Assembly: GCF_014595955.1 (NCBI RefSeq) | Contig: NZ_JABVCF010000017.1 | Location: 96,434-136,722, forward strand | Direction of reading: 5' to 3' | DNA from: Pseudaminobacter soli (ex Zhang et al. 2022) | GTDB lineage: Bacteria > Pseudomonadota > Alphaproteobacteria > Rhizobiales > Rhizobiaceae | DNA length: 40,289 nucleotides | Part shown: positions 4,148-17,543 of the stretch, piece by piece | Layout: each line of letters starts with the position of its first letter | Position numbering within the stretch: the first letter of the stretch is position 1 | The notes under the pieces: model-generated | Databases searched by the model: none | Seen by the model: only the letters and a program-made list of their open reading frames with translations | Told to the model about the DNA's origin: nothing | Position numbers and translations under genes: made by a program

Positions 4148-4825
4148 GTTCCATGGCCAGCTCAGGCGGCGATTCAGACGTTTGGGCCGTTCAGAGTCGA
4201 TGACGCCCATCCTGATATTATTTCGCTGGATGGCGAGATTGACGTAGGCGCTGCGCTCAATTTTCGCCGAGCGATCGAGGCTGCACCCAATGCCAAGCTG
4301 GTAGTCCTCAATAGTCCGGGCGGTTTGGTGCAAATCGCCCTATTGATTGCCGATGACGTGCACCAGAGGAAGCTCGCCACCTACATCCCTCAGAAAGGCA
4401 CCTGCTACTCAGCGTGCGCCTACATATTCCTTGCCGGGGTCGAACGACAGGCTGAGGGTGAGCTTGGCGTCCATCAAATTTCCTCAGAATCGGCCGATCT
4501 CGTTAGCGCTCAGCTATCCATCTCTGACATCATCGACCTCCTCAATCGCTTCGACGCGCCCGTTGAGGTGCTAACCGCGATGTTTAAGACGCCTCCCAAC
4601 GAGATGCATGTATTCACGCCGGATGAGGTCGCGCGATATCGCATCAATCGGCAAAAGGGGAGCTCGTCGAGCACTGTCGCGCAGGGCGGCGGTGCAGAAC
4701 CGATCGAGCAGTCAAACCCGGAACTTGAACTCGACATAGATCCCACACCTGCGCCAGAAGCGGGCGCGGTCGCTGACCTAGCCGCCCCTAGCTTGGCTCG
4801 CACTAACCGGACGTTCGAGGGTTGA
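4148..4825 (+). CDS. ClpP-like (COG3904-type) predicted periplasmic protein, start codon missing or frameshifted
   Basis: The frame is open from after a stop at 4145 to 4825. Clear family-like sequence begins well before any usual start: FRVDDAHPDIISLDGEID, then AKLVVLNSPGGLVQIALLI, KGTCYSACAYIFLAGVER and GELGVHQISS. This is the crotonase/ClpP-like fold of COG3904 proteins, with the SPGG loop and the TCYSACAYIFLAG segment that carries the Ser nucleophile in ClpP relatives. The first in-frame TTG (4325) falls inside the domain and would remove its first strand. An ATG at 4153 in another frame opens a 16-codon frame ending near 4203, so a frameshift around 4150-4205 is likely. The tail after about residue 150 is low-complexity (SSSSTVAQGGG, PTPAPEAGA). 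It may be a pseudogene. Confidence 0.5.
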   Translation, partial: VPWPAQAAIQTFGPFRVDDAHPDIISLDGEIDVGAALNFRRAIEAAPNAKLVVLNSPGGLVQIALLIADDVHQRKLATYIPQKGTCYSACAYIFLAGVERQAEGELGVHQISSESADLVSAQLSISDIIDLLNRFDAPVEVLTAMFKTPPNEMHVFTPDEVARYRINRQKGSSSSTVAQGGGAEPIEQSNPELELDIDPTPAPEAGAVADLAAPSLARTNRTFEG

Positions 4826-4961: not shown

Positions 4962-6596
4962 ATGAGGATTGCCAAGGTCAAGATCACCAACTTCAAGTGT
5001 TACGAAGAGACCTTCACCCTTGCCTTGAATGACGGCCTGAACGTGATCGTCGGCGCCAACGAGTCCGGGAAGACCACGATCCTGGAGGCGATTCATCTGG
5101 CGCTGACGGGACTGTTGCACGGCCGCCCTTTGAAGAACGACCTGACAAGCTATCTCTTCAACTTGGCCGCTCAGAACAAGTACGTACAGAGCCTCGGCAC
5201 AGCATCCCCGCTCCCGCCGCCAGCAATTACCATCGAGCTGTTCTTTTCGGGATCCTCAAACGAGCTGGCGGAGCTCGAGGGTAACGGAAACTCCGAGAAG
5301 GCCAAGGGCAGCGGCGTTGTCTACAAGATCGAGTTCGACGAGGAGAATTACAAAGGGCCATACGAGGAGTTGGTGAAAGCAGGCGCGCTCAGATCCATCC
5401 CGGTTGAGTACTACACCACGACCATGCGTTCGTTCGCGCGCAAGGGTATCACCGCTCGCAATATCCCCATCAAGTCCGCGCTGATTGATTCCTCCAGCAC
5501 CCGGCTGCAACATGGGTCGGACGTCTACGTTTCCCGCATCATCCGCGACGTGCTGGAGGAGAAGGAGCGAGCGTCCATTTCCCAAGCCCACCGAAAGCTC
5601 AAGGAAGCTTTCGTGGCGGACCCGAACCTTAAGCTAATCAACGAGCGGATCACCCAAGCCGCCAAGATCAGCCAGAAGGCGGTCAGCATCTCAGTCGATC
5701 TGTCGTCCCAGACCGCCTGGGAAAGCAGCCTTATGACCTATATCGACCTCATCCCCTTCCAATACATCGGCAAGGGCGAACAGTGCGTGATCAAGACCAA
5801 ACTGGCTCTCAGCGCCAAGAAAAACGCCGAGGCGACGGCGATCCTGCTGGAGGAGCCAGAGAATCACTTGTCGCACGCGCGGCTGAACGAGCTGATCGTC
5901 GACCTCACCGATCAGCATGGCCAAAAGCAGATCATCATTTCCACGCACAGCAGCTTCGTAGCCAATAAGCTCGGCCTCGACCACTTGATCGTGCTGCGTG
6001 GCGGTGAGGTGGCGCGCATCGCGGAACTGGGAGCCAGCGACTTCTTCAAGAAGTTGGCGGGTTACGACACCCTGCGCTTGACGCTCGCCGCCAAGGCCAT
6101 CCTTGTGGAGGGCGATTCCGACGAGTTGGTCGTTCAGCGCGCCTATATGGACGCCAACGGTGGCCGACTACCCATCCAGGACGGCATCGACGTCATCTCC
6201 GTCGGCACGGCCTTCCTGCGCTTCCTTGAACTGGCCGATGCCCTGAAGATCCCGGTCGCCGTAGTAACCGACAATGACGGCGACATCGCCGCCGTCGAGA
6301 AGAAGTACGCCGCCTTCAAGGACTCCGGTACCGTCAGGATCTGCTTTGATCCCATCGTGGACACCGGATCGCTGATGATCAAGGATAAGCCCTTCAACTA
6401 CAATACGTTGGAGCCAAAGCTCCTTAAGGCGAACAATCGTGCGACCCTGAATACCATCCTCGGGACGCCGGCAAAGACGGACGACGAGCTTCGCGTCCAC
6501 ATGCGGGCCAACAAGACCGAGAGCGCCCTGGCCATCTTCAATTCGAAGATCACGATCACCTATCCGGACTACATCCAGAAAGCCATCTCGCCGTGA
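4962..6596 (+). CDS. gajA: GajA-like OLD-family ATP-dependent endonuclease (Gabija defence)
   Basis: A 544-residue protein whose start at ATG 4962 is set by the GGGGGGAG ribosome site. The N-terminal ABC-type ATPase has MRIAKVKITNFKCYEE, Walker A GANESGKTT (31-39), Walker B with its catalytic glutamates in ILLEEPENHLSH (about 295-301) and the H-loop STHSS (327-331). The C-terminal TOPRIM nuclease has the acidic motif ILVEGDSDE (Glu 383) and VVTDNDGD (Asp 437/439). ATPase plus TOPRIM followed directly by a UvrD-like helicase is the class 2 OLD/Gabija arrangement. In characterised Gabija, GajA is a sequence-specific nicking endonuclease held off by nucleotide and released during phage infection. 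The stop overlaps the start of the helicase gene, so the two are translationally coupled. Specificity is unknown. Confidence 0.85.
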   Translation: MRIAKVKITNFKCYEETFTLALNDGLNVIVGANESGKTTILEAIHLALTGLLHGRPLKNDLTSYLFNLAAQNKYVQSLGTASPLPPPAITIELFFSGSSNELAELEGNGNSEKAKGSGVVYKIEFDEENYKGPYEELVKAGALRSIPVEYYTTTMRSFARKGITARNIPIKSALIDSSSTRLQHGSDVYVSRIIRDVLEEKERASISQAHRKLKEAFVADPNLKLINERITQAAKISQKAVSISVDLSSQTAWESSLMTYIDLIPFQYIGKGEQCVIKTKLALSAKKNAEATAILLEEPENHLSHARLNELIVDLTDQHGQKQIIISTHSSFVANKLGLDHLIVLRGGEVARIAELGASDFFKKLAGYDTLRLTLAAKAILVEGDSDELVVQRAYMDANGGRLPIQDGIDVISVGTAFLRFLELADALKIPVAVVTDNDGDIAAVEKKYAAFKDSGTVRICFDPIVDTGSLMIKDKPFNYNTLEPKLLKANNRATLNTILGTPAKTDDELRVHMRANKTESALAIFNSKITITYPDYIQKAISP

Positions 6597-7747
6597 TCGG
6601 CGAGAACAAGATCGTCATCGCTGCCGCCGGCTCGGGCAAGACCACCTACCTTGTCGAGGAGGCGGTGAAGATCAAGGGCGAGCGGGTCCTGATCACTACC
6701 TACACGGAATCGAACGAAGCCGAGATCCGCCAGAAGTTTTTCGAGTTAGTCGGCCATGTGCCGGCAAATGTGGTCATCATGACCTGGTTCAGCTTCCTGA
6801 TCACCCACGGCGTTAAGCCGTTTCAGGGCGGCCTATTCGAGTTCCCGGTCTCCGGCATGGTGCTGGTCTCGGCCCAGTCGGGCCTGAAGTTTCGGACCCG
6901 CCAGGGCAAGCCCGTCTTCTGGCCCGAGGATGACATCGACAAGCACTATTTCGACCCGATCCGGCGGGTCTATTCCGACAAACTCCCCAAGCTTGCGATC
7001 CGATGCAACGAAATGAGCGGCGGCGCCGTGGTCGAACGGATCAGCCGCGTCTTCCAACACGTCTTCGTAGACGAGGTACAGGATCTGGCGGGCTACGATC
7101 TCGACATCCTGGCGGCGCTCGCCCGCAGCTCCGTTCGCCTGATCATGGTCGGCGACCCGCGGCAGGTAACCTACCTTACGCACCATGAGCAGCGCTACAA
7201 GAAGTACGCCGATGGTGGCATCATCGACTTCCTACGCAATGAGCTTCCCAGGAAGGTGTCGGTCGACATCGACGAGACGACCTTGAATCGGTCGCACCGC
7301 AACAGCGCAGTCATCTGCGCGGTGTCGTCACGACTGTTTCCGGCCCTGCCCGCCAGCCAAGCCTGTGAATGTGTGCGGTGTCGCACGGGAACGGGGGCGG
7401 TCACTGGCGCCTTTATCCTCCGGATGGCCGACTACGCCCACTTCCTGGCGACGGTCCGGCCGATGCAGCTGCGTGACAAGATCACCAGCCCCGGCGTAGA
7501 TCGCCGGTGGCCCGCCATGAACTTTGGGGAGTCGAAGGGCCGAGGCTTCGACCATGTGGTCATCTTGCCAACCGAGCCGATGCGACTCTGGCTCTCCGAT
7601 CCCGCAACAAGCCTGAAACACCAGAGCCGGGCGAAGTTCTACGTCGCTCTAACGCGCAGTCGCCACAGTGTGGCCATCGCGATGGATTGGGGGACCGCAC
7701 CCCTGCCCACCGGATTTTCGCTCTACGAGCGCACGCCGCCGACGTGA
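6593..7747 (+). CDS. gajB: GajB-like compact UvrD/Rep-family helicase (Gabija defence)
   Basis: A 384-residue superfamily 1 helicase-like protein starting at GTG 6593, overlapping the gajA stop (GTGA). Motifs in order: Walker A AAAGSGKTT (10-18), Walker B DEVQDL (160-165), motif III-like GDPRQVTY (187-194), motif IV-like LNRSHRNS (231-238), motif V-like ESKGRGFDHVVIL (313-325) and motif VI YVALTRSRHS (350-359). It is shorter than the roughly 490-residue Bacillus cereus GajB because the large 1B/2B insertions are mostly absent. In Gabija, GajB binds or hydrolyses nucleotides upon sensing DNA ends and joins the GajA complex. The tight overlap and position support that partnership. An independent short UvrD-like DNA end sensor is the alternative. 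Confidence 0.8.
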   Translation: MIGENKIVIAAAGSGKTTYLVEEAVKIKGERVLITTYTESNEAEIRQKFFELVGHVPANVVIMTWFSFLITHGVKPFQGGLFEFPVSGMVLVSAQSGLKFRTRQGKPVFWPEDDIDKHYFDPIRRVYSDKLPKLAIRCNEMSGGAVVERISRVFQHVFVDEVQDLAGYDLDILAALARSSVRLIMVGDPRQVTYLTHHEQRYKKYADGGIIDFLRNELPRKVSVDIDETTLNRSHRNSAVICAVSSRLFPALPASQACECVRCRTGTGAVTGAFILRMADYAHFLATVRPMQLRDKITSPGVDRRWPAMNFGESKGRGFDHVVILPTEPMRLWLSDPATSLKHQSRAKFYVALTRSRHSVAIAMDWGTAPLPTGFSLYERTPPT

Positions 7748-7846
7748 CGTCGGCCCCGGCCGGGCAGATGGCCGGTATCGGGAACGGCGACCGGCATCCT
7801 AACTGACGAGAATTAGGCGCTAAGCTGTCGGACGGCTAGGGGCCAG

Positions 7847-7863
7847 AAGCGGACAGTCCGCTT
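7847..7863. terminator. Perfect palindrome after gajB, possible terminator
   Basis: AAGCGGACAGTCCGCTT is a perfect 8-base inverted repeat around a single central base, about 100 bases past the gajB stop. The right arm ends in TTT. The stem could act as a weak terminator, but there is no long U-run, and the sequence may simply be a dispersed palindromic repeat. Confidence 0.35.
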
Positions 7864-7948
7864 TCAGATCATCAGACAGCTAAGTTGCCATTGATGAAGG
7901 GCCGCCACAACGGCAAAGCTGGCTCCCAATGAAAAGCAATCGGCCCCC

Positions 7949-8035
7949 GCACCTGGCACCCTCTACCTCATCGGGGTGAAAGAGGTTGTCATCGCCCGCA
8001 TCTTCCACGGAGCACAGCGTCGATCTTCAGAATAG
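7949..8035 (+). pseudogene. Possible 3' fragment of a ParE/RelE-family toxin gene
   Basis: In one frame the sequence reads GTLYLIGVKEVVIARIFHGA, then QRRSSE and a stop at 8033-8035. This resembles the last strand of ParE/RelE toxins (a hydrophobic strand followed by R-(I/V)-x-H-(G/A)-xR). No upstream part of a toxin and no antitoxin is seen in this frame. The similarity is short and could be chance, so it is reported only as a possible gene relic in the otherwise empty 7748-8066 gap. Confidence 0.3.
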
Positions 8036-8066
8036 CCGCATCGGCCTTCCAAGCGCGGTATGATTT

Positions 8067-8663
8067 CTACGGTGCTATTACCCGGCGTGGGCGCGGCTTG
8101 GCGATGTCCGCCTGCGCCGTAAAATAGGCGGCAAGGTCGTCACCCACACCGGCAGCTTGCAGCAAACCCAGCGCCTCGTTCCGGTTGCCCCAGGGGCTTT
8201 TCGTGTGTGGCTGCCACTTCGATGCCAGCAGTTCGCGCATCCTCCGGCGATCGAAGTGATGCTCGCGGGCGCCGGCTACGATAAGTGCCAAATACCAATC
8301 ATATGGAACGCGCGTGAGGTCGGGCTCCTGAGCCAGGTAGACGGCTGCATGCACGATCTCCTTGGTATCGTGGCGGCGCACGGGAAACGCATCCTCTCTA
8401 TAATAGCCAGCTCCAACGCCCTCCGCGTCATCGAGCTGCCCGCGTTCGGCCATATCGATCTCAAAAAGAACACCCGCTTGCCTGACGCGTTTGTGTGCCT
8501 TTGCCAGATGCCCTTTGCCCGATCCGTCGTTGCTGGGTTTTGCGAAGGTCAGGCGGTAACCTTCCGCGGAGGCAACGCACACGGGCGTCGTGCTTTCGCA
8601 CCGCGCTTTCAGACGCGCGGTAAGCATGTTTGAGCCATATCCGAAGTAGAGGAAGCTGGTCAT
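8067..8663 (-). CDS. Gamma-glutamylcyclotransferase-like (GGCT/AIG2 fold) protein
   Basis: A 198-residue protein starting at ATG 8663. The N-terminal FLYFGYGSNML (4-14) is the hallmark YGSN substrate loop of the GGCT fold, and DDAEGVGAGYYRE (78-90) supplies the catalytic-type glutamate (Glu 81) followed by the conserved Tyr. GVLFEID and the paired hydrophobic strand VHAAVYLA fit the barrel. These enzymes turn gamma-glutamyl peptides or amines into 5-oxoproline; the natural substrate here is unknown. It lies between Gabija and CBASS genes, divergent from the unknown gene at 8750 with an 86-base gap that must hold both promoters. Whether it has a role in defence or is ordinary metabolic cargo cannot be decided. 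No signal peptide; predicted cytoplasmic. Confidence 0.75.
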   Translation of the reverse strand: MTSFLYFGYGSNMLTARLKARCESTTPVCVASAEGYRLTFAKPSNDGSGKGHLAKAHKRVRQAGVLFEIDMAERGQLDDAEGVGAGYYREDAFPVRRHDTKEIVHAAVYLAQEPDLTRVPYDWYLALIVAGAREHHFDRRRMRELLASKWQPHTKSPWGNRNEALGLLQAAGVGDDLAAYFTAQADIAKPRPRRVIAP

Positions 8664-8749
8664 GGCCGATCAATATCACAGCCGCGATCTCCAAAGGAAT
8701 GTTATTGCGCTGATCAGTATCATGCGGATTGGATGTGGTTATATTTCGT

Positions 8750-9937
8750 ATGAGCGAATCTTCAGATGCCGATGACAATAAGCCAGCGCCGGGCGTGCTC
8801 GCCGGGAACGTCGGCGAGCCGATCAAACTCACAGACCTGACGCTCGCCGGGGTAAGTGCCGAAGCGGCGCGCGGCGGCGACACGATCAAAATCTGGACGA
8901 GGCTTTCGCTGACATCGGACGACCGGCATTTCTACCGTATTGTCGAAAACTTTGCCGCTCATGTTGAGCATATGGCGCGAAAGGCTGGGCACCATGTCAG
9001 CCTGAGCAGGTACGGCCTTATTCTGCTGGTGATCCGTCCGGACAACACAGGCAAGCTGTGGCTCGATGCAGCGGCGGTCTCGATGAACATCCTGGCCAAG
9101 CGCGCGATGAAGGCGGGCACGGTCATATTCGAGAACGACATTGCCGATGTTACGGCAATGTCGTTCCCGCTCGTGGAGATCGGCAAGCAAGATCGCGTGC
9201 TGTGCATCTTTCGGGAAGGCTGGCGCTTTGCGCTCTTCTTCGATTTCAATCCCGACGGCGATCTCTCCATCGAGGACATGGAAAGAGATCTCGGAACGCT
9301 GCACCGCCGGCTTAAATACCGCGATCTCTACGACGCTATCGCCGACCAGAATGTTTTCCGGCGGCTTATCGAAGCTGGGTGGTTTCCTTTCGTCGAAATT
9401 CTCGGCCGGGAATTCCGCGAGCTTACGAACAACTGCGAGGCGGGTTTCGAACTGGGCGAAGTGGAGGCGAAACTGCTCGCGGCGTTCGATACCAAACGGG
9501 TCGAGGCAATGTTCGCGCGCTGGATGGCCAAGCCGCATTTTGCCGGAAAAGAGCGGTTGCTCCGCTCTGCGCTCAACAATTTCACAGCCGGCGATTCCAT
9601 CGCTGTGCTGAAGATTGTTCTGACCGAGATCGAAGGCATTCTGAGCGCAGCCTACCATAAAGCCCATGGTAAAGGCGCAAGGCTCAAAAGGCTTCTCGAA
9701 TTCGCGACCATGTCGGCGGAGAAGAAGGCCGGCCAGCCCGACACTTTGTTGTTTCCGGCAGCATTCGCGCACTATCTGAAGTCCCACACATTTGCAGAAT
9801 TCGATCCGGTGGCGCGAACGGGGAAGGCAAGTTCGCGTCATGCTGTTGGCCATGGCGCGGCGGACGATGACAGCTATACCCAAGTGCGGGCGCTGCAGGC
9901 GCTGCTGACGCTCGACCAGCTGGCCTTTTATACATAA
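8750..9937 (+). CDS. Uncharacterised ~395-residue protein with HEPN-like C-terminal motif
   Basis: Not assignable to a named family. ATG 8750 is chosen; a TTG at 8729 would add seven residues. The first ~190 residues look like an alpha/beta domain (GLILLVIRPDNTGKLWLDAA; RFALFFDFNPDGDLSIEDM). The second half is helical, containing FRRLIEAGWFPFVEILGREF and a helix near 295 (LKIVLTEIEGILSAAYHKAH). Near the end, SRHAVGHG followed by RALQALLTLDQLAFY matches the R-x4-H pattern followed by a long helix seen in HEPN-type RNases and abortive-infection proteins (Arg and His separated by four residues). That family link is an inference from one motif. The gene sits alone between the Gabija-like and CBASS modules, so a defence role is plausible. 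There is no signal peptide or membrane segment. Confidence 0.7.
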   Translation: MSESSDADDNKPAPGVLAGNVGEPIKLTDLTLAGVSAEAARGGDTIKIWTRLSLTSDDRHFYRIVENFAAHVEHMARKAGHHVSLSRYGLILLVIRPDNTGKLWLDAAAVSMNILAKRAMKAGTVIFENDIADVTAMSFPLVEIGKQDRVLCIFREGWRFALFFDFNPDGDLSIEDMERDLGTLHRRLKYRDLYDAIADQNVFRRLIEAGWFPFVEILGREFRELTNNCEAGFELGEVEAKLLAAFDTKRVEAMFARWMAKPHFAGKERLLRSALNNFTAGDSIAVLKIVLTEIEGILSAAYHKAHGKGARLKRLLEFATMSAEKKAGQPDTLLFPAAFAHYLKSHTFAEFDPVARTGKASSRHAVGHGAADDDSYTQVRALQALLTLDQLAFYT

Positions 9938-9948
9938 CGGTATTGGGC

Positions 9949-9962
9949 CTCCACCGGTGGAG
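9949..9962. terminator. Perfect 14-base palindrome between convergent genes
   Basis: CTCCACCGGTGGAG is fully self-complementary and begins 12 bases after the stop of the 8750-9937 gene, in the gap before the end of the oppositely oriented CBASS operon. It could serve as a bidirectional terminator stem, but it lacks a U-tract and has no natural loop. Confidence 0.35.
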
Positions 9963-10007
9963 CCACGCCAAAATTGATTAAGCCCCGCGCCCGTTGAAGA
10001 GGCGGCG

Positions 10008-10020
10008 CTGACAGCGTCAG
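10008..10020. terminator. Small hairpin in the convergent intergenic gap
   Basis: CTGAC-AGC-GTCAG forms a 5-bp stem with a 3-base loop, 55 bases beyond the stop of the CBASS effector gene (minus strand). It is probably part of a terminator region, but no U-tract follows in either direction. Confidence 0.3.
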
Positions 10021-10074
10021 GAAGTCGGTAGCTTTCTCGCGTGGGCGGCCGTGGAGGTGGTTTAGTTAACCGCG

Positions 10075-11571
10075 TTAGCCGACCGTCAGTCCTTCACTGT
10101 AGGTTCCTGTACGCCGCCCATCAAAATCCCATTCGTAGACGGTGCTGGGCCCGATGGCCTTATGCAGTTGCCCGAGGAAAAAGGTAAAACCGTTGGGCGC
10201 TGAGATGAACAGATGCGTTCTCGGGCAGCGGCCAACCTGGCGCAGTTGATCCACAAGCGCTTCCGCAAGGTGCGCCGCGTGCGCTCCGCATTTCACCGAT
10301 GACTGCAACGCTGGGCTCGCGAGTTTTGCCGTAACGAGCGTGCCGACAGAGGGTAGATTGCCTGCCAGGAAGCTCCTGACATCGCCGCTGATGTTGTGCG
10401 TAAGACCGATGGCAATCGCGCGCTCGGCGCTATCACCAAGCTTTTCCGTTTGGCACTCGATCGTGGGCCAATCAGGATCTGCCGCAAAATCGTCGCGCGA
10501 CCAAAACCGGCGCGAGCCGGTTCGCTGCTCGATCGCGATAGACTTGCCCGATTTGACGTCGAGGATTGAGCCGACAGCAAACGCGAGCGAAACGTGCGCA
10601 TCCAACACCAGGCGAAGGCTTTCATGCTCGCGTGCGTGCGAGAGAACGAATTCTTTGAGTTCTGGATAGAGAGACTGGTTCCAGGATTTTTCATCGCGCA
10701 GATACCGGTCATCGAAATGCGGCACGAGGTTAAGGCTCTCGTCGGTGCGCGCTTCAAGACTGTCGATGGGGTGCAAGAACGACTTCACGCCGATGGTCCA
10801 GCTCGGCGGCTCTCTGCGATCGTCCAACAGGTTCTCGGAGCGGACCATGTCCTTGAAGGACTCGCGGTCGAACTCCTTGCGGCCTTGCGCATGAAGCTTC
10901 TTGATCGTGTCGTCGTAAAGAAAACCGGCCTCGCTCGCCGGGATCGGCTTCATACCGAGACGGGCGAACCTGTCATTGAGGTGTTCGCGGATATCGGCGC
11001 CGGAGCGGATGCGAAGATTGACGCTCATCGTCCGAACGAGCAGGCGCAGCTGATCTTCGTCGATACCGAGATGCTCCGCCCAATGGGCGCGGAACCGGCC
11101 GGTCTCGCTTCGCGGTCCGCCTTTGAACAGCGTGCCGACATCGAGGCTGTTGTGCTGAAGCTGAATGAGCTTTCGCAGCGGGTCCGTCGCGCTCCAGTTG
11201 GTGACGAACTGGAAGCGCGCGCCCTCGCCAGCGGGCGCGAAGGCGAGCTGCGCGTCCCTCGCGCGCTGCAAGATCGACACGCTCGTCCCCTTGGTGAATT
11301 CGGGGTTGGCAAAATCCTCGTAGCCGAAATCACCGGGCCTGACATGCCATTTGCATTGCAGGTGATCCCGGAGGACCGGCCTGCCGGTATGGTCTTGCGG
11401 TGCGCCTTTGGGGTCATAGTCGATGACGACGTCATCGAATGCCTTGGGGCCGGTCTCGAAGAACACGCGCCGCACCGGCGCTTTCTCGTCGAGCAGCAGC
11501 GAGGCGTGAAGCCAGAACAGCCGCGCCTGGAAGTCATCGCCTTGCTGGCGCGCTACGATTGAATCCGCCAT
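10075..11571 (-). CDS. cap4: CBASS effector: PD-(D/E)xK-type nuclease fused to SAVED domain (Cap4-like)
   Basis: A 498-residue protein; ATG 11571 is used because it follows the CD-NTase stop by 7 bases. The N-terminal ~230 residues carry a restriction-nuclease-like core: GDDFQARLFWLHA (11-23), VFFET (Glu 39), FDDVVIDYD (Asp 46/47) and LQCKWHV (Gln-x-Lys, 72-74). This is the E...D...QxK pattern of DUF4297/Mrr-like enzymes. The C-terminus has SAVED features: LFISAPNGFTFFLGQLHKA and VYEWDFDGRRTGTYSEGLTV, the segment that in SAVED domains follows a Rossmann-like fold binding cyclic oligonucleotides. In CBASS, ligand binding by SAVED activates the nuclease to destroy DNA and abort infection. It is the last gene of the operon. 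The effector class is inferred from motif order; the ligand is unknown. Confidence 0.8.
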   Translation of the reverse strand: MADSIVARQQGDDFQARLFWLHASLLLDEKAPVRRVFFETGPKAFDDVVIDYDPKGAPQDHTGRPVLRDHLQCKWHVRPGDFGYEDFANPEFTKGTSVSILQRARDAQLAFAPAGEGARFQFVTNWSATDPLRKLIQLQHNSLDVGTLFKGGPRSETGRFRAHWAEHLGIDEDQLRLLVRTMSVNLRIRSGADIREHLNDRFARLGMKPIPASEAGFLYDDTIKKLHAQGRKEFDRESFKDMVRSENLLDDRREPPSWTIGVKSFLHPIDSLEARTDESLNLVPHFDDRYLRDEKSWNQSLYPELKEFVLSHAREHESLRLVLDAHVSLAFAVGSILDVKSGKSIAIEQRTGSRRFWSRDDFAADPDWPTIECQTEKLGDSAERAIAIGLTHNISGDVRSFLAGNLPSVGTLVTAKLASPALQSSVKCGAHAAHLAEALVDQLRQVGRCPRTHLFISAPNGFTFFLGQLHKAIGPSTVYEWDFDGRRTGTYSEGLTVG

Positions 11572-11578
11572 GACGCGT

Positions 11579-12460
11579 CTAGCTCGTCGGAAAATACTTG
11601 CCCATGATCTCACGCCAGAGCGCAATGGCGTCGCCCTGCCGGCCCTGCTGCTCGTAGCGGACGGCGGTGGCGGCTTTCATCTCTGCCTGACGCAACTGCT
11701 CTTTCGCAGCGATGATCAGCTGCGGTGTCATCTGGTCCGAAACCGGAGGGCCGTAGCCGGCGGGGTCGGGCCACGACCTTCCGATCCCATCGAGAGCCGC
11801 GGCGAAGAAGCGCCGGACCTCGCTCGGGTAGGTGGTGAAGGGAGCGTCGACGAGGTCTTGCATCATGACCTCGATCAAGAAGGAGGGCTTGATCGGCTTG
11901 CCTGCCGACCTGTTCCAGCGCTTCACCATCTTGACGAGCGGCACCCACTTGCCGCCAAGTTCCTTGTTCTTCTTCGTGGCCTGCTCGGCATGGATTTCGG
12001 GGTCTGTCTTGATCCACTTGCCCAGCACGCGATCAGGGATCTCGTAGCAGTCGCCGATGTCGAAGGCCGGCACGGCGTCGATCGAGAGCACCTTGCCTTC
12101 TTCGTCTTTCGTGTTTTTTTCGAACTCGACGGTGGCGCAGCGGCGGCCGGGCTCGACGGCGTCTTCCCCGTACTCCTTCTTTAGCGTCTTCACGAACGCA
12201 TCGATCAGCTCGGAGGGAGCCTTGTTCCGGTATTTGTCGCGCTCCTTCTGGCCGAGGATGAAGAACACATCGACATCCTTCAGCGGCTTTGTCTTGGTGG
12301 ACCTGCCGTAGGACCCGGTGAGGATGTCGCGATCGACCGCAAAATCGGCACGGATGAGTTCGCGCACCTCCGTGTGCCGTTTGATCGTGTCCTTGCGCTC
12401 GGTCTCGCTCAATTCGAGACGCTGGCGGTATTTTTCAAAAGCCTCTTGGGTCGTGATCAT
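11579..12460 (-). CDS. cdnC: CBASS CD-NTase (cGAS/DncV-like nucleotidyltransferase), clade C/D type
   Basis: A 293-residue nucleotidyltransferase. ILTGSYGRSTKTKPLKDVDV carries the GS motif (49-50) and the Asp-x-Asp metal ligands (62 and 64); the third acidic residue is probably Asp 128 in LSIDAVPAFD. A conserved helical half follows (WVPLVKMVKRWNRSAGKPIK, SFLIEVMM), typical of the OAS-like core. CD-NTases make cyclic di- or trinucleotides upon infection; those with HORMA/TRIP13 partners are type III CBASS enzymes of clades C and D. The start ATG 12460 overlaps the preceding HORMA gene's stop (ATGA). The cdnC symbol is provisional because clade C and D cannot be separated by eye, and the product nucleotide cannot be predicted. 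Confidence 0.85.
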   Translation of the reverse strand: MITTQEAFEKYRQRLELSETERKDTIKRHTEVRELIRADFAVDRDILTGSYGRSTKTKPLKDVDVFFILGQKERDKYRNKAPSELIDAFVKTLKKEYGEDAVEPGRRCATVEFEKNTKDEEGKVLSIDAVPAFDIGDCYEIPDRVLGKWIKTDPEIHAEQATKKNKELGGKWVPLVKMVKRWNRSAGKPIKPSFLIEVMMQDLVDAPFTTYPSEVRRFFAAALDGIGRSWPDPAGYGPPVSDQMTPQLIIAAKEQLRQAEMKAATAVRYEQQGRQGDAIALWREIMGKYFPTS

Positions 12461-12954
12461 CTGTAGTAGGTCGCCGATGCCATGATGTCAGGGGTTGCGA
12501 TCACCGTTCCGGCTTCGCGCGGCGACAAGCCGTTGAGGCCGAGAAACGACACGTAGGAAAGTCCGACGTTGGGAGCGCCGGGCGCTTCGACCAGCAAGAG
12601 GCGGTAGATGCAGTTTGCCGGCGGCTTCGGCGCTTTCGCGAACGAGCTTTTGAAGAATTCGGTATCGACCCACATCTCGTCGATGCCGTTTGCATCGTAG
12701 CGGATCGGAAAGTCCCACCGGCCCGATGCGTTTGCCGCGCCCGGCACATAGAACTCGATGACGATTTTCTGGAGATGGCCGCTCTCCATAAGCTTGCGGG
12801 CGGCCTCATGCACCCAGCTCGACCAGGCGTCGACGAGCGCTTTCGGATCGAGCCCGGCATCGATGACGAGGCTCTTCATGAGATTGCGCATCTTATCGGC
12901 GACATAGATCGCGGTGTTGGTGCGCGTGTAGGCTGTGGCGTGCGTGCTGGTCAT
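12457..12954 (-). CDS. cap7: Bacterial HORMA-domain protein (Cap7-like)
   Basis: A 165-residue protein between the CD-NTase and a second small protein of the CBASS operon. TRTNTAIYVADKMRNLMKSL and the pattern HLQKIVIEFYVPGAANASGR ... RWDFPIRYDA fit the bacterial HORMA-1 fold, where N-terminal helices precede a beta-sheet core and a C-terminal safety-belt region. The last ~45 residues (YVSFLGLNGLSPREAGTVIA) could be the mobile seat-belt. In type III CBASS, HORMA proteins bind a peptide signal and then activate the CD-NTase; TRIP13 resets them. Placement next to a TRIP13-like gene is the main support. Stop and start overlap the CD-NTase gene by four bases. The assignment of Cap7 versus Cap8 to the two small proteins is provisional. 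Confidence 0.75.
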   Translation of the reverse strand: MTSTHATAYTRTNTAIYVADKMRNLMKSLVIDAGLDPKALVDAWSSWVHEAARKLMESGHLQKIVIEFYVPGAANASGRWDFPIRYDANGIDEMWVDTEFFKSSFAKAPKPPANCIYRLLLVEAPGAPNVGLSYVSFLGLNGLSPREAGTVIATPDIMASATYYR

Positions 12955-12955
12955 C

Positions 12956-13408
12956 TCAGTTCAGCGCTCCCCAATCGATCTTCACCGCCTGCGCGCCGGA
13001 CGCGCTCTCTTCGTCATCGCTGGCGGCATTGACGTCTTGGACCTTGATGCGCGGCGCGCGGTCCTTCAGCGCCTTGTTCATCCAGTCCACGTCCTCGGGG
13101 TCCGAGGGCGCGCTCATCGACCAGTCGCCGGCGGTCGGATTCCAACTCAGCTTGTCGACCGACAAGTCGGCTTCCATCGCGTCTTCGCCATAGAGCAGAT
13201 AGATGACGAGGCGGCTGCCGACGCCTTTCACGACGATCGGCTTTTTGGCCGGTTGTTCATCCGCGATCAGCGATTCCATGATGCTGGCGGCGCTCTCCAG
13301 AGTCTTCTTGTCGATTGTGCCTGCGCCCGTGATGAGATCGACGATCGCAGTCCATGTCTGGGTGGCCGAGCGTTTGGGGATCGAGGCAATTTCGCGGCGG
13401 ACTTTCAT
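12956..13408 (-). CDS. cap8: Second HORMA-type CBASS accessory protein (Cap8-like)
   Basis: A 150-residue protein between the TRIP13-like ATPase and the first HORMA gene. The start ATG 13408 overlaps the ATPase stop by four bases, and its stop is one base before the next gene. Visible features are a helical N-terminus (SATQTWTAIVDLITGAG), a strand-rich centre (KPIVVKGVGSRLVIYLLYGE) and an acidic C-terminal tail (AASDDEESASGAQAVKIDW). Some type III CBASS operons encode two divergent HORMA proteins; position is the main basis for this call because I see no diagnostic motif by itself. The acidic tail ending in a hydrophobic patch could be a closure peptide for the partner HORMA, which is speculative. 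Confidence 0.6.
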   Translation of the reverse strand: MKVRREIASIPKRSATQTWTAIVDLITGAGTIDKKTLESAASIMESLIADEQPAKKPIVVKGVGSRLVIYLLYGEDAMEADLSVDKLSWNPTAGDWSMSAPSDPEDVDWMNKALKDRAPRIKVQDVNAASDDEESASGAQAVKIDWGALN

Positions 13409-14271
13409 GCGGCCTCCACAAGGTCGGGCTGCTCCGCCGCCTGGCTGAGGGTTTCCAGCACATTCTCGCGGGTAAGCTTGTTGAGGTCCTTGGCAGTCTC
13501 GATGGAGATCGCGCCGGCCGAAGTCAGGGCTTTGCGAAGGCGCCTGCCATCCATGCCTTCAGATGCGGCCACGAACGCTGCGATATGCGTTCTCAGATGT
13601 CCGACCTTCGGCCATTCGCGGCCGAGCAGTTCGAGCACCTCAAGGATGATCTGCTTCCTTGCCTCCGCGCCGGGAGGTCCGATCTCCTCGATCCAGTCTG
13701 CGCGGGAGAGCAGTGCGCGGTCGACGGCCTTGGGATAGTTGGTGGTCGCGATCAGCAGCGTGTTGCGGTGCTTCCTGGTCAACAGGTCGATGCCGGCGAG
13801 CGCGGCGTCGGTGGCGCGATGCGCATCGATCGGATTGGCTTCGAGGCTCATCTTCTGCCGGTCGGCCGCGAGGGTTTCGACCTCGTCGAGAAGGACGATG
13901 GCCGGCATCGACATGGCGAGCTCGGGGATCGTCTGGCTGAAAATCTTCGAGACTTCCTTCTGGCTCTTCCCGAGGGACGAGCTGCCAAGCGCGTGTGCGT
14001 CGAGCTGCACGTACTGCGCGCGTCCGACGACCTTCGCGATCCTGTCTGCGAGCCCGCGCGCAAGGGTCGTCTTTCCCGTGCCGGGCGGTCCGGACATGAG
14101 GATGAGCCCGTGCATCGGAATCTGCTCGAAGGAGAATTTCTGCCGCATCTGCAGCGAGAGTACCGCCTGTGCGACGAGCCTTTCTTTGACGGACGCATCA
14201 AGCTTGATGGCATCCCATGCAGCCTCGAAATCTTTGCTCGGCAGCTGCTTGTGTTCGACGATAACGTCCAT
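13405..14271 (-). CDS. cap6: TRIP13/Pch2-like AAA+ ATPase of CBASS (Cap6)
   Basis: A 288-residue AAA+ protein, first gene of the CBASS operon. Motifs: Walker A GPPGTGKTT (61-69), Walker B IVLLDEVE (Asp 129, Glu 130), sensor 1 LLIATTNYP (Asn 178) and arginine-finger region RALLSRAD (Arg 190). The 25-residue gap between Walker A and the pore-loop segment LGSSSLGKSQKEV fits the TRIP13/Pch2 clade. In type III CBASS the hexamer unfolds the N-terminus of an activated HORMA protein, pulling it off the CD-NTase and limiting signalling. AGAGGG eight bases before ATG 14271 is a good ribosome site. Co-occurrence with two HORMA-type genes makes the assignment firm. Confidence 0.85.
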   Translation of the reverse strand: MDVIVEHKQLPSKDFEAAWDAIKLDASVKERLVAQAVLSLQMRQKFSFEQIPMHGLILMSGPPGTGKTTLARGLADRIAKVVGRAQYVQLDAHALGSSSLGKSQKEVSKIFSQTIPELAMSMPAIVLLDEVETLAADRQKMSLEANPIDAHRATDAALAGIDLLTRKHRNTLLIATTNYPKAVDRALLSRADWIEEIGPPGAEARKQIILEVLELLGREWPKVGHLRTHIAAFVAASEGMDGRRLRKALTSAGAISIETAKDLNKLTRENVLETLSQAAEQPDLVEAA

Positions 14272-14344
14272 GCTTAAGCCCTCTTACGAAACCCGCGCGA
14301 AGGCGGTTCCGCTTGCAAAACAACAACCGGTCTGACTACGGGCG

Positions 14345-14353
14345 CCCCCCCCC
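14345..14353. repeat. C9 homopolymer in the CBASS operon leader
   Basis: Nine consecutive C residues (G9 on the transcribed strand) about 75 bases upstream of the cap6 start and downstream of the putative minus-strand promoter. Other C-runs in the window reach only seven and lie inside genes. It could alter in length by slippage, but no direct functional sign is visible. Confidence 0.5.
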
Positions 14354-14451
14354 AGCGTCAGCGGCTATATAGGTATGTTTTGGCGCCTTCCAACGCAACA
14401 TATAGTGGCGCCCGAAAAATACCGGCATCGAAAATACCAGAACTCCGAACA

Positions 14452-14480
14452 CGGTAAGGGGACTCGGTTCTCGTTGTCAA
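14452..14480 (-). promoter_or_regulatory. Putative divergent promoter for the CBASS operon
   Basis: On the minus strand TTGACA (14480-14475) is followed after 17 bases by TTACCG (14457-14452). The -35 hexamer is perfect and overlaps the capH -35 on the other strand; the -10 is poor and overlaps the first operator-like element. A second option nearer to cap6 is TTGGAA-N16-TATATA (about 14394-14367). The leader would be about 175 bases with the first choice. Confidence 0.4.
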
Positions 14481-14502
14481 GAACGAAAAATATCGCTACT
14501 CT
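14474..14502 (+). promoter_or_regulatory. Putative sigma70 promoter for capH-capP
   Basis: TTGTCA (14474-14479), 17-base spacer, TACTCT (14497-14502). The -10 box is inside the second operator-like element, so a bound repressor would block it. Transcription would start close to 14508, leaving a leader of about 25 bases with the AAGGAG ribosome site of capH. Confidence 0.5.
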
Positions 14503-14531
14503 GAACACTGTGAATGAAGGAGCCTGCAATC

Positions 14532-14855
14532 GTGACAACACCCCTCGGGACGAAAATCCGCGACCTACGAAAAGAGAAGGGGTTTACGCTCGACAAGCTC
14601 GCCGAACTCACCGATTCCAGCAAAAGCTACATCTGGGAGTTGGAGAACAAGAACCCGCCCAGGCCCTCGGCCGACAAGGTGGCCCGGATCGCGACCGCGC
14701 TCGGCGTGACGAGCGACTACCTCGTCGACGTCAATGCGAGCGTCACGGTCGAAGACGCTGCCGACCAGGCGTTCTACCGAAAATATCGCGACATGGACAC
14801 CTCGACCAAAAGCAAGATTCGCAAGATGGTCGATCTGCTCGGCGAGGATGAATGA
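14532..14855 (+). CDS. capH: CapH-like XRE-family repressor of CBASS
   Basis: A 107-residue protein with an N-terminal helix-turn-helix (LGTKIRDLRKEKGFTLDKLA ... SSKSYIWELENK ... ARIATALGVTSDYLV, about 5-63) and a short helical C-terminus. The start GTG 14532 is preferred because AAGGAG (14517-14522) lies nine bases upstream; an ATG at 14514 is in frame but sits before that ribosome site. It is followed by an overlapping ImmA/IrrE-like protease gene. The pair matches CapH-CapP, which regulates CBASS: CapH represses the operon and CapP cleaves CapH upon DNA damage signals. It is transcribed away from the CBASS operon across a control region with duplicated elements. The motif-level match is strong; the regulatory role is inferred from known systems. 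Confidence 0.8.
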   Translation: MTTPLGTKIRDLRKEKGFTLDKLAELTDSSKSYIWELENKNPPRPSADKVARIATALGVTSDYLVDVNASVTVEDAADQAFYRKYRDMDTSTKSKIRKMVDLLGEDE

Positions 14856-15742
14856 GCGAGCCATCTCCGGAGCGATGGGCTATCGATCTCTCGCTGCTGC
14901 TCAATGCGGTGAAGGGCGCCGATAGGTTCCCGGTCGATATCGCCGAACTTGCGCTGGAATATTCGAAGACGCGCTTCCCGGGCGATCCGATCCTGCGCGT
15001 GGCAGGCGACGATTTGCCGGGTTTCGACGGGGCCTTGATGAAGGCTCCCGGTGGCAAGCCCGGCTGGGGCATTTTCTACAACAACGCCTTCAGATCGAAG
15101 GGGCGGATCAACTTCACGCTCGCGCACGAGCTCGGGCACTATCTCTTGCACCGCACCGCCTATCCGGACGGATTCTACTGCAGCTCGAACGACGTGGTGC
15201 GGTGGGATTCGGAATACGGCCAGATCGAGCACCAGGCGAACGTCTTCGCCGCCAACATTCTGATGCCGCTCGACGATTATCGCAGGCAGATTCCGCAGCA
15301 CCTGCGGGTAGACCTTGAAATGATTTCGGCCTGCGCCGAGCGCTACCGCGTCTCGCTGATCGCGGCGAGCCTTCGGTGGCTCACCTACACGACGCGGCGG
15401 GCGATCCTGGTCTGCTCGCGCGATGGTTTCATTCTGTGGGCGAAGCCGAGCGCCAGCGCGCTCAAGTCCGGCATCTATTTCAGGACCTCGATGGGGCCGA
15501 TCGAGATACCGGGACAGTCCCAGGCGGCGAAGCAGGACATGCTCGTGGATGCGAGGAGCGGCATCCCGCATCCGGCCGGGGTATGGTTTCGTGAGCCGGT
15601 GCAGGAAATGACGGTGTTCTCGGAGCAGTATGATTTCGTGGTCAGTCTTCTCACGCTGGAGGACCGGGACAGATACGAGCCGAGCGAAGAGCCTATTGAG
15701 GACAGCTACGACCGGTTCATGAACCGGCAGCAGAGATTCTGA
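14852..15742 (+). CDS. capP: CapP-like ImmA/IrrE-family metallopeptidase
   Basis: A 296-residue protein; ATG 14852 overlaps the capH stop (ATGA). The zinc site is NFTLAHELGHYLLHR (HELGH, 92-96) with the third ligand likely Glu 126 in GQIEHQANVFAANILMP, the classic ImmA/IrrE arrangement. A C-terminal domain of ~150 residues (FILWAKPSASALKSGIYFRT; LTLEDRDRYEPSEEPIEDSY) may sense the activating signal. CapP cleaves the repressor CapH and de-represses CBASS in characterised systems, where single-stranded DNA is the proposed trigger. Adjacent to a CBASS operon and coupled to an XRE repressor, the assignment is strong. Without context it would be called a generic XRE-partner peptidase. Confidence 0.85.
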   Translation: MSEPSPERWAIDLSLLLNAVKGADRFPVDIAELALEYSKTRFPGDPILRVAGDDLPGFDGALMKAPGGKPGWGIFYNNAFRSKGRINFTLAHELGHYLLHRTAYPDGFYCSSNDVVRWDSEYGQIEHQANVFAANILMPLDDYRRQIPQHLRVDLEMISACAERYRVSLIAASLRWLTYTTRRAILVCSRDGFILWAKPSASALKSGIYFRTSMGPIEIPGQSQAAKQDMLVDARSGIPHPAGVWFREPVQEMTVFSEQYDFVVSLLTLEDRDRYEPSEEPIEDSYDRFMNRQQRF

Positions 15743-16078: not shown

Positions 16079-17107
16079 TCAGGCTGCGGCGCTGATCGGC
16101 GCCCGGTAGGTTCCCCCGCGCGTCATGATCGCCCAGGCCACGCGTGCCGTCCGGTTGGCGGCGGCCACCGTGACGAGACGTGCCGGTTTGCGCGCCAGCA
16201 TGGCAGGCAGGCGCGGATCAACCGATGCTGGCTGTATCCGCGCCCGTCGGACGAGCGAGGTCATGCCGACCACCAACAGCCGACGCAGGTAGCGGTCACC
16301 CATGCGTGAGATCCGGCCCATCCGCTCCCGGCCTCCCGAGCAGTTCTGGAGTGGCGTCAGACCCAGCGAGGCGGCGAACTGGCGGCCGGAGCGGAAGCGC
16401 TCAGGCTCAATAGCAGAAGCCGCCAGGGCCGTTGCCGAGATCACACCGATGCCCGGGATTGTAGCCAAGCGCTGCGACAGTTCGTTGGAGTGGTGCCAGG
16501 CCAGAAGCTCCTTCTCCAGACGGGCAAGTTGGAGCTGAACGGTGCCGATCTGATCCGCCAATCCCTGCCCCACCAGCCGAGCCGACGGCGGCACCTCGGG
16601 TGCCTCGCCAGCGGAAAGCCGCCTCGCCAGGCGCAAGGCATGGTGGAGGCCACGCGCCATCTCGATGCCGAACTCAGCCAGCAGACCACGCAGCATGTTC
16701 ACAAGCTGCGTACGCTGCCTCACCAGCAGTTCGCGGGTCCGGTGCAACGCCAACGCCGCCTGCTGCTCGGCCGACTTGACCGGCACGAAGCGCATGGTCG
16801 GCCGCGTCACCGCCTCACAGATCGCCTCAGCATCCGCCGCATCGGTTTTGCCTCGCTTCACATAGGGCTTCACGTAAGCTGGCGGCATCAGCCGCACCGC
16901 ATGGCCAAGCTTTGTCAGTTCGCGTGCCCAATGATGCGCGGTGCCGCAAGCTTCCATGCCGACGAGGCAGGCGGGAAGCTTGGCAAAGAACGGCAGAACC
17001 TGCGCCCGCCGCAACGCCTTGCGGAAGACAACGCGCCCTTCCGCGTCGACGGCATGGACCTGGAAGACGCTCTTGGCCAGATCGAGGCCCACGGTGGTGA
17101 CTTGCAT
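16079..17107 (-). CDS. IS110/IS1111-family transposase
   Basis: A 342-residue protein; ATG 17107 is preceded by AGGAG nine bases upstream. The N-terminal DEDD-type domain shows TTVGLDLAKSVFQVHAVD (Asp 9), LVGMEACGTAHHWARELTKL and VKRGKTDAADAEAICEAVTR, and the C-terminal transposase_20-type domain shows LATIPGIGVISATALAASAI and RQFAASLGLTPLQNCSGGRE with the catalytic-type serine. These enzymes move DNA by a RuvC-like, bridge-RNA-guided mechanism in IS110 elements. The frame looks intact with no stops, so the element may be active. The Shine-Dalgarno is itself part of the repeated GGATGGCTCC motif (reverse complement), which pairs with the copy at 17185-17194. Confidence 0.9.
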   Translation of the reverse strand: MQVTTVGLDLAKSVFQVHAVDAEGRVVFRKALRRAQVLPFFAKLPACLVGMEACGTAHHWARELTKLGHAVRLMPPAYVKPYVKRGKTDAADAEAICEAVTRPTMRFVPVKSAEQQAALALHRTRELLVRQRTQLVNMLRGLLAEFGIEMARGLHHALRLARRLSAGEAPEVPPSARLVGQGLADQIGTVQLQLARLEKELLAWHHSNELSQRLATIPGIGVISATALAASAIEPERFRSGRQFAASLGLTPLQNCSGGRERMGRISRMGDRYLRRLLVVGMTSLVRRARIQPASVDPRLPAMLARKPARLVTVAAANRTARVAWAIMTRGGTYRAPISAAA

Positions 17108-17110
17108 GAC

Positions 17111-17194
17111 GGATGGCTCCTGTAACGTGTGGTCGCTGCGACAGCGCCACTTTTCCAGGCGGCAGAATGCCGTCAACGGGAGCGGGAGCCATCC
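17111..17194 (-). repeat. Inverted motif around the transposase leader
   Basis: GGATGGCTCC at 17111-17120 and its complement GGAGCCATCC at 17185-17194 form 10-base arms separated by 64 bases. The near arm contains the ribosome site of the transposase gene, so folding of the leader could hide it. The non-coding RNA that guides IS1111-group transposases may also lie in this 5' region or in the untranslated part near 15815-16078; I cannot tell which. Confidence 0.4.
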
Positions 17195-17196
17195 AC

Positions 17197-17543
17197 CCCA
17201 TCTGCTTTGAAGTGGCTGCCGTAATTTCTGAATGACGGGATTGGGGCGCAGAGCTGGCATTTGCAACGTGGAGAACTAAGGCCGGCAACGGGTCGCACTT
17301 TCTCGCTCGGCGGGGCTCATTCGCGCGATGCCGGCGCGGGCTTTCAACTCGGAACCGTTGCTGTCTTCAGACAGAGGGGAGGGGACTGGCGTCCAACCTT
17401 CTCCGCCTGCCGGCGAACCCGGCAGGTGGTAGCAGCTGCAACTTCTGATGCGTCGGCATAGGGTTACCGCAAAGCGTGCTGCGGTTGCCGAACCGAGTTC
17501 TTCACCGCGCCATACTGGGTTTACTCCAACCCCAGCCTTCTCT
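17197..17543. other. Gene-free stretch between the IS and the ABC/SRAP scar
   Basis: No gene is supported. It holds a strong hairpin (17406-17426) and otherwise looks like residual intergenic DNA left after IS insertion and gene deletion. Codon structure is not apparent in any frame. Confidence 0.4.
17406..17426. terminator. Strong 8-bp hairpin (REP- or terminator-like)
   Basis: CCTGCCGG-CGAAC-CCGGCAGG is a perfect 8-bp GC-rich stem with a 5-base loop, in the gene-free stretch between the IS and the truncated ABC gene. There is no U-run. It may be a terminator remnant or a single palindromic repeat unit. Confidence 0.4.

Follow-up and report, generated by a model that had tools for sequence, protein, structure and literature searches.

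Several described systems offer a comparison for the island at positions 4962-15742 of the Pseudaminobacter soli DNA analysed here (the whole stretch, 40,289 nucleotides, is called the window), and in particular for an unclassified gene within that island, the middle gene, at 8750-9937 on the plus strand. The solved GajB of the Gabija system extends to residue 494, according to the portion of PMC10681800 available to us. For the type III cyclic oligonucleotide-based antiphage signaling system (CBASS), the accessible text of a review has HORMA and TRIP13 controlling the CD-NTase (PMC10419184), and in the available part of PMC13373217 single-stranded DNA leads CapP to cleave CapH. HEPN RNases, as far as the part of PMC3710099 at hand describes them, carry an Rx4-6H motif whose arginine is followed by a polar residue (usually N, D or H), and often an acidic residue in helix 2; HEPN families are poorly conserved between each other in sequence outside this motif, which some of them have lost. 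In the same portion of that source, ApeA joins a mostly-beta domain at its N terminus to a HEPN domain, an architecture resembling the one we predict for the middle gene.

The island comprises a GajA-GajB pair and a type III CBASS operon of five genes, from which CapH-CapP diverges; two further genes lie between Gabija and CBASS. Translations were scanned with PADLOC, Pfam and NCBIfam, and catalytic motifs were located by pattern search; every gene listed in a preliminary description of this DNA was present at its coordinates, the families called by the three libraries agree with that list, and the proteins do fall in the Gabija and CBASS families. The known systems are ordinary, and the middle gene is one new candidate family. 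The best overall explanation, to which we assign a probability of about 0.6, is a set of independent modules: a compact Gabija pair, a type III CBASS, and the middle gene as a stand-alone HEPN effector. The beta-rich N-terminal domain of the middle gene would then probably be a sensing or regulatory part, and the C-terminal domain would have a HEPN fold with a predicted E...R-x4-H active site. The protein would most likely act alone, kept off until a phage cue triggers it during infection; its RNA cleavage, metal-free as in descriptions of HEPN RNases, would then halt the infected cell.

The middle gene and its C-terminal domain

The middle gene encodes 395 residues; at the limits used, searches of PADLOC, Pfam, NCBIfam and PHROGs returned no matching model. 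We aligned the window protein with 32 full-length or nearly full-length relatives (33 rows). Left out of this family alignment were two half genes at contig ends (L035 and L039), a 34-residue match (L043) and the plasmid relatives, and one further alignment additionally left out a relative without its last residues (L009). Searched against Pfam, the 33 members gave ten scattered weak matches, one member each (best E 0.012), and there was no ApeA or HEPN model among these ten families. With the 33 rows, AlphaFold2 modeled the full-length protein at a mean predicted local distance difference test score (pLDDT) of 90.6 and a predicted template modeling score of 0.86. The model consists mainly of strands up to residue 165, with a helix at residues 61-78 among them, and of helices thereafter. 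The C-terminal 150 residues (246-395; 9485-9934, plus strand), modeled alone, reached a pLDDT of 95.7.

Six polar residues are invariant across the 33 rows: S56, D133, E295, Y342, R363 and H368. R363 and H368, together with the equally invariant G369, form the R-x4-H-G motif RHAVGHG (residues 363-369; 9836-9856, plus strand), the predicted RNase active site, which in the models precedes the last helix. E295, in the segment TEIEG (9632-9634, plus strand), is the predicted second active-site residue and lies in an earlier long helix, residues 283-306, which in our reading of the models would be helix 2 of the HEPN fold. The residue following R363 is H in 30 rows, N in two and P in one. With R-x4-H before the last helix and E295 in an earlier one, motif and acid fit the HEPN RNase signature. 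The middle gene thus resembles the HEPN RNases (AbiF/AbiD, AbiV, Swt1-like and MNT-HEPN) in its R-x4-H motif, polar residue after the arginine, upstream acid and predicted helical bundle, and differs from them in lacking sequence-profile similarity to the seven HEPN-type proteins compared below.

When the C-terminal model was compared with the PDB by Foldseek, the top three matches by E-value were 1ufb (TT1696), 2hsb (AF0298) and 3o10 (the HEPN domain of sacsin), each of them weak (E 0.99-2.2, template modeling (TM) scores 0.31-0.48). Six of the 24 matches listed are HEPN, namely these three together with 1o3u, 2q00 and 9bj6; among them, we take 1ufb to be a HEPN protein and 2q00 likewise to be HEPN. 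The full-length model gave 1ufb the highest probability (0.30) among the 50 PDB matches listed.

Several results weigh against a HEPN assignment. There was no Foldseek match in the PDB at E<=0.001 with either the C-terminal or the full-length model, and the TM-score of the C-terminal model for the AbiV structure 9bj6 was 0.22. The profile of the domain, compared by hhalign with seven HEPN or HEPN-annotated proteins (those annotated as HEPN presumably being DUF5677), placed them at ranks 84-625 of 634, all below 1% probability, and a PDB profile search with the family returned two unrelated matches only (E 0.25 and 0.38). The missing profile link lowers the case for HEPN membership without excluding it, because HEPN families diverge in sequence outside the motif. 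On balance, we consider the C-terminal domain to be probably a HEPN domain, and we predict, with less assurance, that it has RNase activity.

Of the alternatives, the one that fares best is nonetheless unlikely. It holds that the domain is HEPN-like without RNase activity, a binding or regulatory domain, for example that of a mobile-element regulator, and not a defense effector. The weakness of the Foldseek matches, the presence of relatives on 8 plasmid records and the loss of the motif in some HEPN families, as reported in the available part of PMC3710099, would all suit it, but all 33 of 33 rows keep the motif, a constancy not needed by a dead active site, and E295, R363 and H368 make up half of the six invariant polar residues. 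We think it less probable again that the middle gene lies outside HEPN altogether and has another helical fold with another enzymatic or binding role. Consistent with this, it has no sequence link to HEPN families and, as said, no PDB match at the E-value limit; yet the top three PDB matches of the isolated domain are all HEPN, 1ufb leads the full-length comparison by probability, and both the motif and the helix order fit HEPN.

ApeA has a role in phage defense. Its N-terminal domain has ~300 residues, whereas that of the middle gene has ~165, and the two differ further in that the middle gene has no PADLOC or Pfam match, both of which libraries we take to hold ApeA models.

Distribution and neighborhoods of the middle-gene family

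The middle-gene family is rare, patchy across phyla and carried on plasmids. Its members come from Alpha-, Beta- and Gammaproteobacteria and, less often, from other phyla. In addition to the plasmid records, one pattern-limited scan of the genome collection found 35 loci. Among drawn genomes, relatives were present in 3 of 199 from the same bacterial family (one of them borderline, E 9.9e-4), 2 of 397 from the order and 2 of 398 from the phylum, with the window's own genome included in each count. A relative from a Klebsiella assembly had no DNA match in E. coli genomes. Two plasmid copies are damaged: a Bradyrhizobium plasmid (L005:12001-13278) has a broken relative whose C-terminal reading frame is altered, and a Rhizobium plasmid (L006:12001-16003) has one in two pieces with transposase genes around it.

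No relatives were found in the phage collection or viral contigs searched, and we therefore rejected, for the collections at hand, the idea that the middle gene is phage-encoded. At E 3e-8 and 4e-4, two BFVD models from one Siphoviridae assembly, A0A8S5NQ77 and A0A8S5NQ38, match the fold predicted for it, and because of these structural matches a split phage-borne relative is possible.

The gene tree of the 33 rows mixes classes and phyla, with 10 label changes where the least possible is 3 and with the five gammaproteobacterial rows in five places; horizontal transfer fits because of this mixing. Some branches of the tree are long, and several forks are not resolved.

We fetched 40 loci with a relative of the middle gene, extending at most ~12 kb on each side and in several cases less; they include near-copies, and L120 and L023 represent a single place. 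None of the 40 contains a relative of the window's Gabija, CBASS cyclase or effector. By tblastn at E<=1e-6, no other of the window's eleven island proteins was found, with the exception of a weak TRIP13-like AAA match (28%) in L027; L012 has a GajB-type helicase by PADLOC that is not close to the GajB of the window. The island is not conserved as a unit, and because of this lack of co-occurrence Gabija, CBASS and the middle gene appear to be separate modules.

For the same reason we rejected the assignment of the middle gene to Gabija or CBASS. Its position between the two systems in the window is what would favor an accessory role, either in Gabija as its third gene or in CBASS as an additional effector, but we hold such a role to be highly improbable: a window-type Gabija pair, CBASS cyclase or effector lies nearby in 0 of the 40 loci, and in the fetched stretches the middle gene is missing beside close relatives of both the Gabija pair (L072) and the CBASS (L073 and L074). 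Least probable of all is a divergent two-gene module, for instance toxin plus modifier, with the adjacent gamma-glutamylcyclotransferase (GGCT)-like gene at 8067-8663, for which speak the divergent starts with 86 bases between them and the GGCT-like genes of other rhizobial defense loci (once with Gabija, Shedu and TIR, once with Shedu-like fragments), and against which stand the absence of a GGCT relative from every fetched locus with a middle-gene relative and the presence of GGCT relatives in 23 of 297 same-order genomes, the window's own counted.

A fixed partner of the middle gene was also rejected, as the neighbors differ between loci. The sole shared following genes are those of an Agrobacterium/Ciceribacter group of 4 loci (L007, L026, L027 and L028). 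In this group two further genes stand closely after the relative (L007:13190-15235), the first of them Swt1-HEPN-like, just below the Pfam cutoff; the Swt1-HEPN-like gene is ~20 bases downstream in the two loci of this group that were measured.

The preliminary description had proposed that genes interposed between the systems are themselves defense candidates, and that neighborhoods of homologues be compared. We assembled a near set of 121 out of 187 flanking genes from 33 loci, hand-chosen and mostly the two nearest on each side. Very long, very short and some duplicate genes were left out, as were L026 and L028 (near copies of L007) and L004 and L005 (near copies of L010). A far set held 121 of 129 genes, its counts being lower bounds, and a random set held 121 of 234 genes from 15 loci, with L044 left out. 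At PADLOC E<1e-46, the matches listed for the near neighbors include PDC-S06, PDC-S19, ThsB, LmuA, LmuB, AbiEii, an RTasHel/GajB helicase and PDC-S02, and those listed for the random genes include the HerA and PDC-M16A models only. At E<1e-10, the PADLOC families number 114 for the near, 124 for the far and 32 for the random set. Of ten single checks by PADLOC, three located a match: a helicase for L012, LmuB for L029 and PDC-S06 for L041.

These neighborhoods appear richer in defense genes than random ones, a result that is suggestive and statistically borderline, and other observations also temper the case for a mobile defense gene. By hand reading of the PADLOC family lists, with an outcome that depends on how families are counted, 7 or 8 of 121 near genes were defense genes against 1 or 2 of 121 random ones (Fisher p 0.066 or 0.10); near and far together gave at least 14 or 15 of 242 against the same random counts (p 0.025 or 0.065). 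Genes >5 kb away looked as defense-rich as the near ones, partly via generic models such as kinases, and the random set was drawn entirely from the bacterial family of the window, whereas the loci span phyla. In none of 200 shuffles (mean 13.9 changes) were the class labels of the gene tree as clustered as observed.

The proposal therefore holds in part: the predicted fold, the invariant residues, the patchy spread and the defense-leaning neighborhoods make the middle gene a defense candidate, and the GGCT-like gene is one weakly. We lean, by a little, toward an anti-phage role for the middle gene, a leaning that the recount of its neighbors reduced slightly, together with our overall confidence. 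The fullest version, a new family that joins a sensor-like beta domain to a divergent HEPN RNase, acts alone against phages and is carried horizontally between phyla, is a tentative proposal with slightly less than an even chance of being right in all its parts.

Gabija, CBASS and the CapH-CapP pair

The first gene of the island (4962-6596, plus strand) encodes a GajA-like OLD-family ATPase/Toprim nuclease of 544 residues (PADLOC GajA PDLC00102, 4.6e-222; Pfam OLD-like_TOPRIM, 2e-13) with Walker A and B motifs and the Toprim E and DND. It overlaps by 4 bases the gene for a compact GajB-like UvrD-family protein of 384 residues (6593-7747, plus strand; PADLOC GajB PDLC00148, 5.3e-138), which has Walker A, DEVQD and motif VI. 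The coupled GajA-GajB pair of the preliminary description is thus confirmed, and it is like Gabija in its OLD nuclease, UvrD-like gene, short overlap and PADLOC models. It differs in the length of GajB, 384 residues against a solved chain that reaches residue 494 (PMC10681800, available part), and in its relation to the solved proteins: the match to solved GajA is weak (3e-4), and no solved chain matched GajB at E<=0.01. Because of these weak or absent matches, the sequences place the pair in what appears to be a distant, compact subgroup of Gabija. The closest plasmid relative of GajA, 81% identical, is from Tistrella mobilis, where the next gene encodes a GajB of equal length and 73% identity; the compact GajB would therefore be natural and not a local truncation.

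The CBASS operon lies on the minus strand in the order TRIP13-HORMA-HORMA-CD-NTase-Cap4. Its genes encode a TRIP13/Pch2-like AAA ATPase of 288 residues (13405-14271; PADLOC TRIP13, 6e-115), which we take to be Cap6; a HORMA protein of 150 residues (12956-13408; PADLOC, 2.6e-50), presumably HORMA3/Cap8-type, with a W-G pair in its C-terminal peptide that 3 of 3 aligned sequences retain; a HORMA protein of 165 residues (12457-12954; bacHORMA_2, Pfam 1.1e-29, PADLOC 8e-31), presumably Cap7-type; a CD-NTase of 293 residues (11579-12460; PADLOC 1.7e-126, NCBIfam CBASS_cyclase_b above cutoff, 6p8u 3e-74); and a Cap4-type effector of 498 residues with PD-DExK nuclease and SAVED domains (10075-11571; PADLOC 3e-185, SAVED_PDDEXK 3e-172, 7yib 2e-63, 7yia 1e-62). 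Pattern search found GS..R.T and DVD in the CD-NTase, D...QxK in Cap4 and Walker A and B in TRIP13. Features of type III CBASS are therefore present, namely the CD-NTase motifs, the HORMA proteins and TRIP13 within the operon and the SAVED nuclease effector. All five gene types of the variant with two HORMA proteins and Cap4 occur here with nothing essential different, and the gene order is retained on two plasmids, R. rhizogenes pColt5.8d and that of Bradyrhizobium sp. 2S1. The CD-NTase had no match in the three other genomes of the genus, one of which is 85% complete.

Divergent from this operon, on the plus strand, are genes for the CapH helix-turn-helix repressor of 113 residues (14514-14855; PADLOC capH, 2.9e-31) and the CapP metallopeptidase of 296 residues (14852-15742; Pfam Peptidase_M78, 5e-16; solved CapP 7t5t, 4.4e-65), in which pattern search located HELGH. 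A helix-turn-helix protein and an M78 peptidase with HExxH thus stand beside an immune operon, matching the capH model and solved CapP, and no difference from the known pair was found. Among the CBASS loci its placement varies: the pair is upstream and divergent in the window and at the far end in R. rhizogenes. CapH-CapP was not found in the CBASS locus of Bradyrhizobium sp. 2S1 within the fetched stretch. With these results, the claims of a complete CBASS operon with its CapH-CapP pair, and of visible catalytic motifs in GajA, GajB, CD-NTase, Cap4, TRIP13 and CapP, are borne out. By analogy with relatives, the HORMA proteins would activate the CD-NTase and TRIP13 would reset HORMA; the cyclic nucleotide would bind the SAVED domain of Cap4, which would then degrade DNA. 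CapH would repress the operon until single-stranded DNA appeared and CapP cleaved CapH.

The pattern ACTCYGAAC occurs three times in the window, a number reached in 2 of 100 shuffles. Two copies, ACTCCGAAC (14442-14450, plus strand) and, 56 bases past it, ACTCTGAAC (14498-14506, plus strand), lie between the CBASS operon and capH, and the third is at 4189-4197. Six related loci (L102, L103, L104, L105, L106 and L073) have at least one exact copy. Upstream of capH, L102 and L106 have two exact copies spaced 56-57 bases apart, L103 and L105 have one exact copy and one with a mismatch (inverted and at another spacing in L103), and L104 has a single copy. In R. rhizogenes pColt5.8d, whose capP-capH pair stands at the opposite end, there is a copy ahead of TRIP13 and another ahead of capH. 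Neither the upstream DNA of the most divergent CapH relatives (L107-L109) nor the Bradyrhizobium locus that lacks CapH contains the pattern. ACTCYGAAC looks like a candidate CapH operator in this bacterial order. Just one of the eight same-order CapH-CapP loci fetched (L110) adjoins relatives of the window CBASS, and CapH-CapP thus also serves other genes.

The GGCT-like gene and the flanks

Both interposed genes are real: alongside the middle gene with its 32 aligned relatives, the gene at 8067-8663 on the minus strand (198 residues) matches the GGCT/AIG2 family (Pfam AIG2_2, 2.6e-11; human GGCT 2pn7, 1.2e-10). It has YGSN, and its EGV segment, which presumably holds the catalytic Glu, aligns with human GGCT. 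Relatives are on 4 plasmid records, two of them alike. In Rhizobium ruizarguesonis, a single annotated gene separates a relative from a pair of Gabija genes, and Shedu and TIR genes lie further out; another, at a rhizobial plasmid locus, is near Shedu-like fragments. In one genome a relative and a CapH-CapP pair are ~22 kb apart on the same contig. Four other neighborhoods (L113 and L121-L123) held no other island protein of the window within the fetched stretch, and a literature search on GGCT and phage defense yielded nothing useful in the partial texts it returned. We regard the gene as a weak defense candidate and otherwise ordinary. At the rhizobial plasmid loci L069, L070 and L071, GGCT-like sequences are near Gabija, Shedu-like or toxin-antitoxin genes, and at such loci the sequence twice forms part of a longer annotated protein.

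At the left of the window, a DUF1612/HTH_13 gene of the RHE_PE00001 family (102-902) has relatives on 910 plasmid records, which hints that this contig region is plasmid-derived; such relatives are also at most ~12 kb from defense genes in L007 and L069. Adjoining capP on the right is an IS110-family transposase gene (16079-17266), whose DNA is ~79% like copies on Methylobacterium plasmids. An empty island site was not found in two genomes (G160 and G080), where the best flank matches are on separate contigs and the right-flank matches, just 67-74% identical, may be paralogues.

Against the clean background of this mostly textbook island, a single unclassified gene is conspicuous. The conserved operator candidate is a small, testable addition to what keeps the window CBASS off. 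Should the middle gene prove to be an active HEPN RNase, its family would be one that the libraries searched have missed, and with catalytic residues predicted, loss-of-function mutants offer a direct test of the claim.

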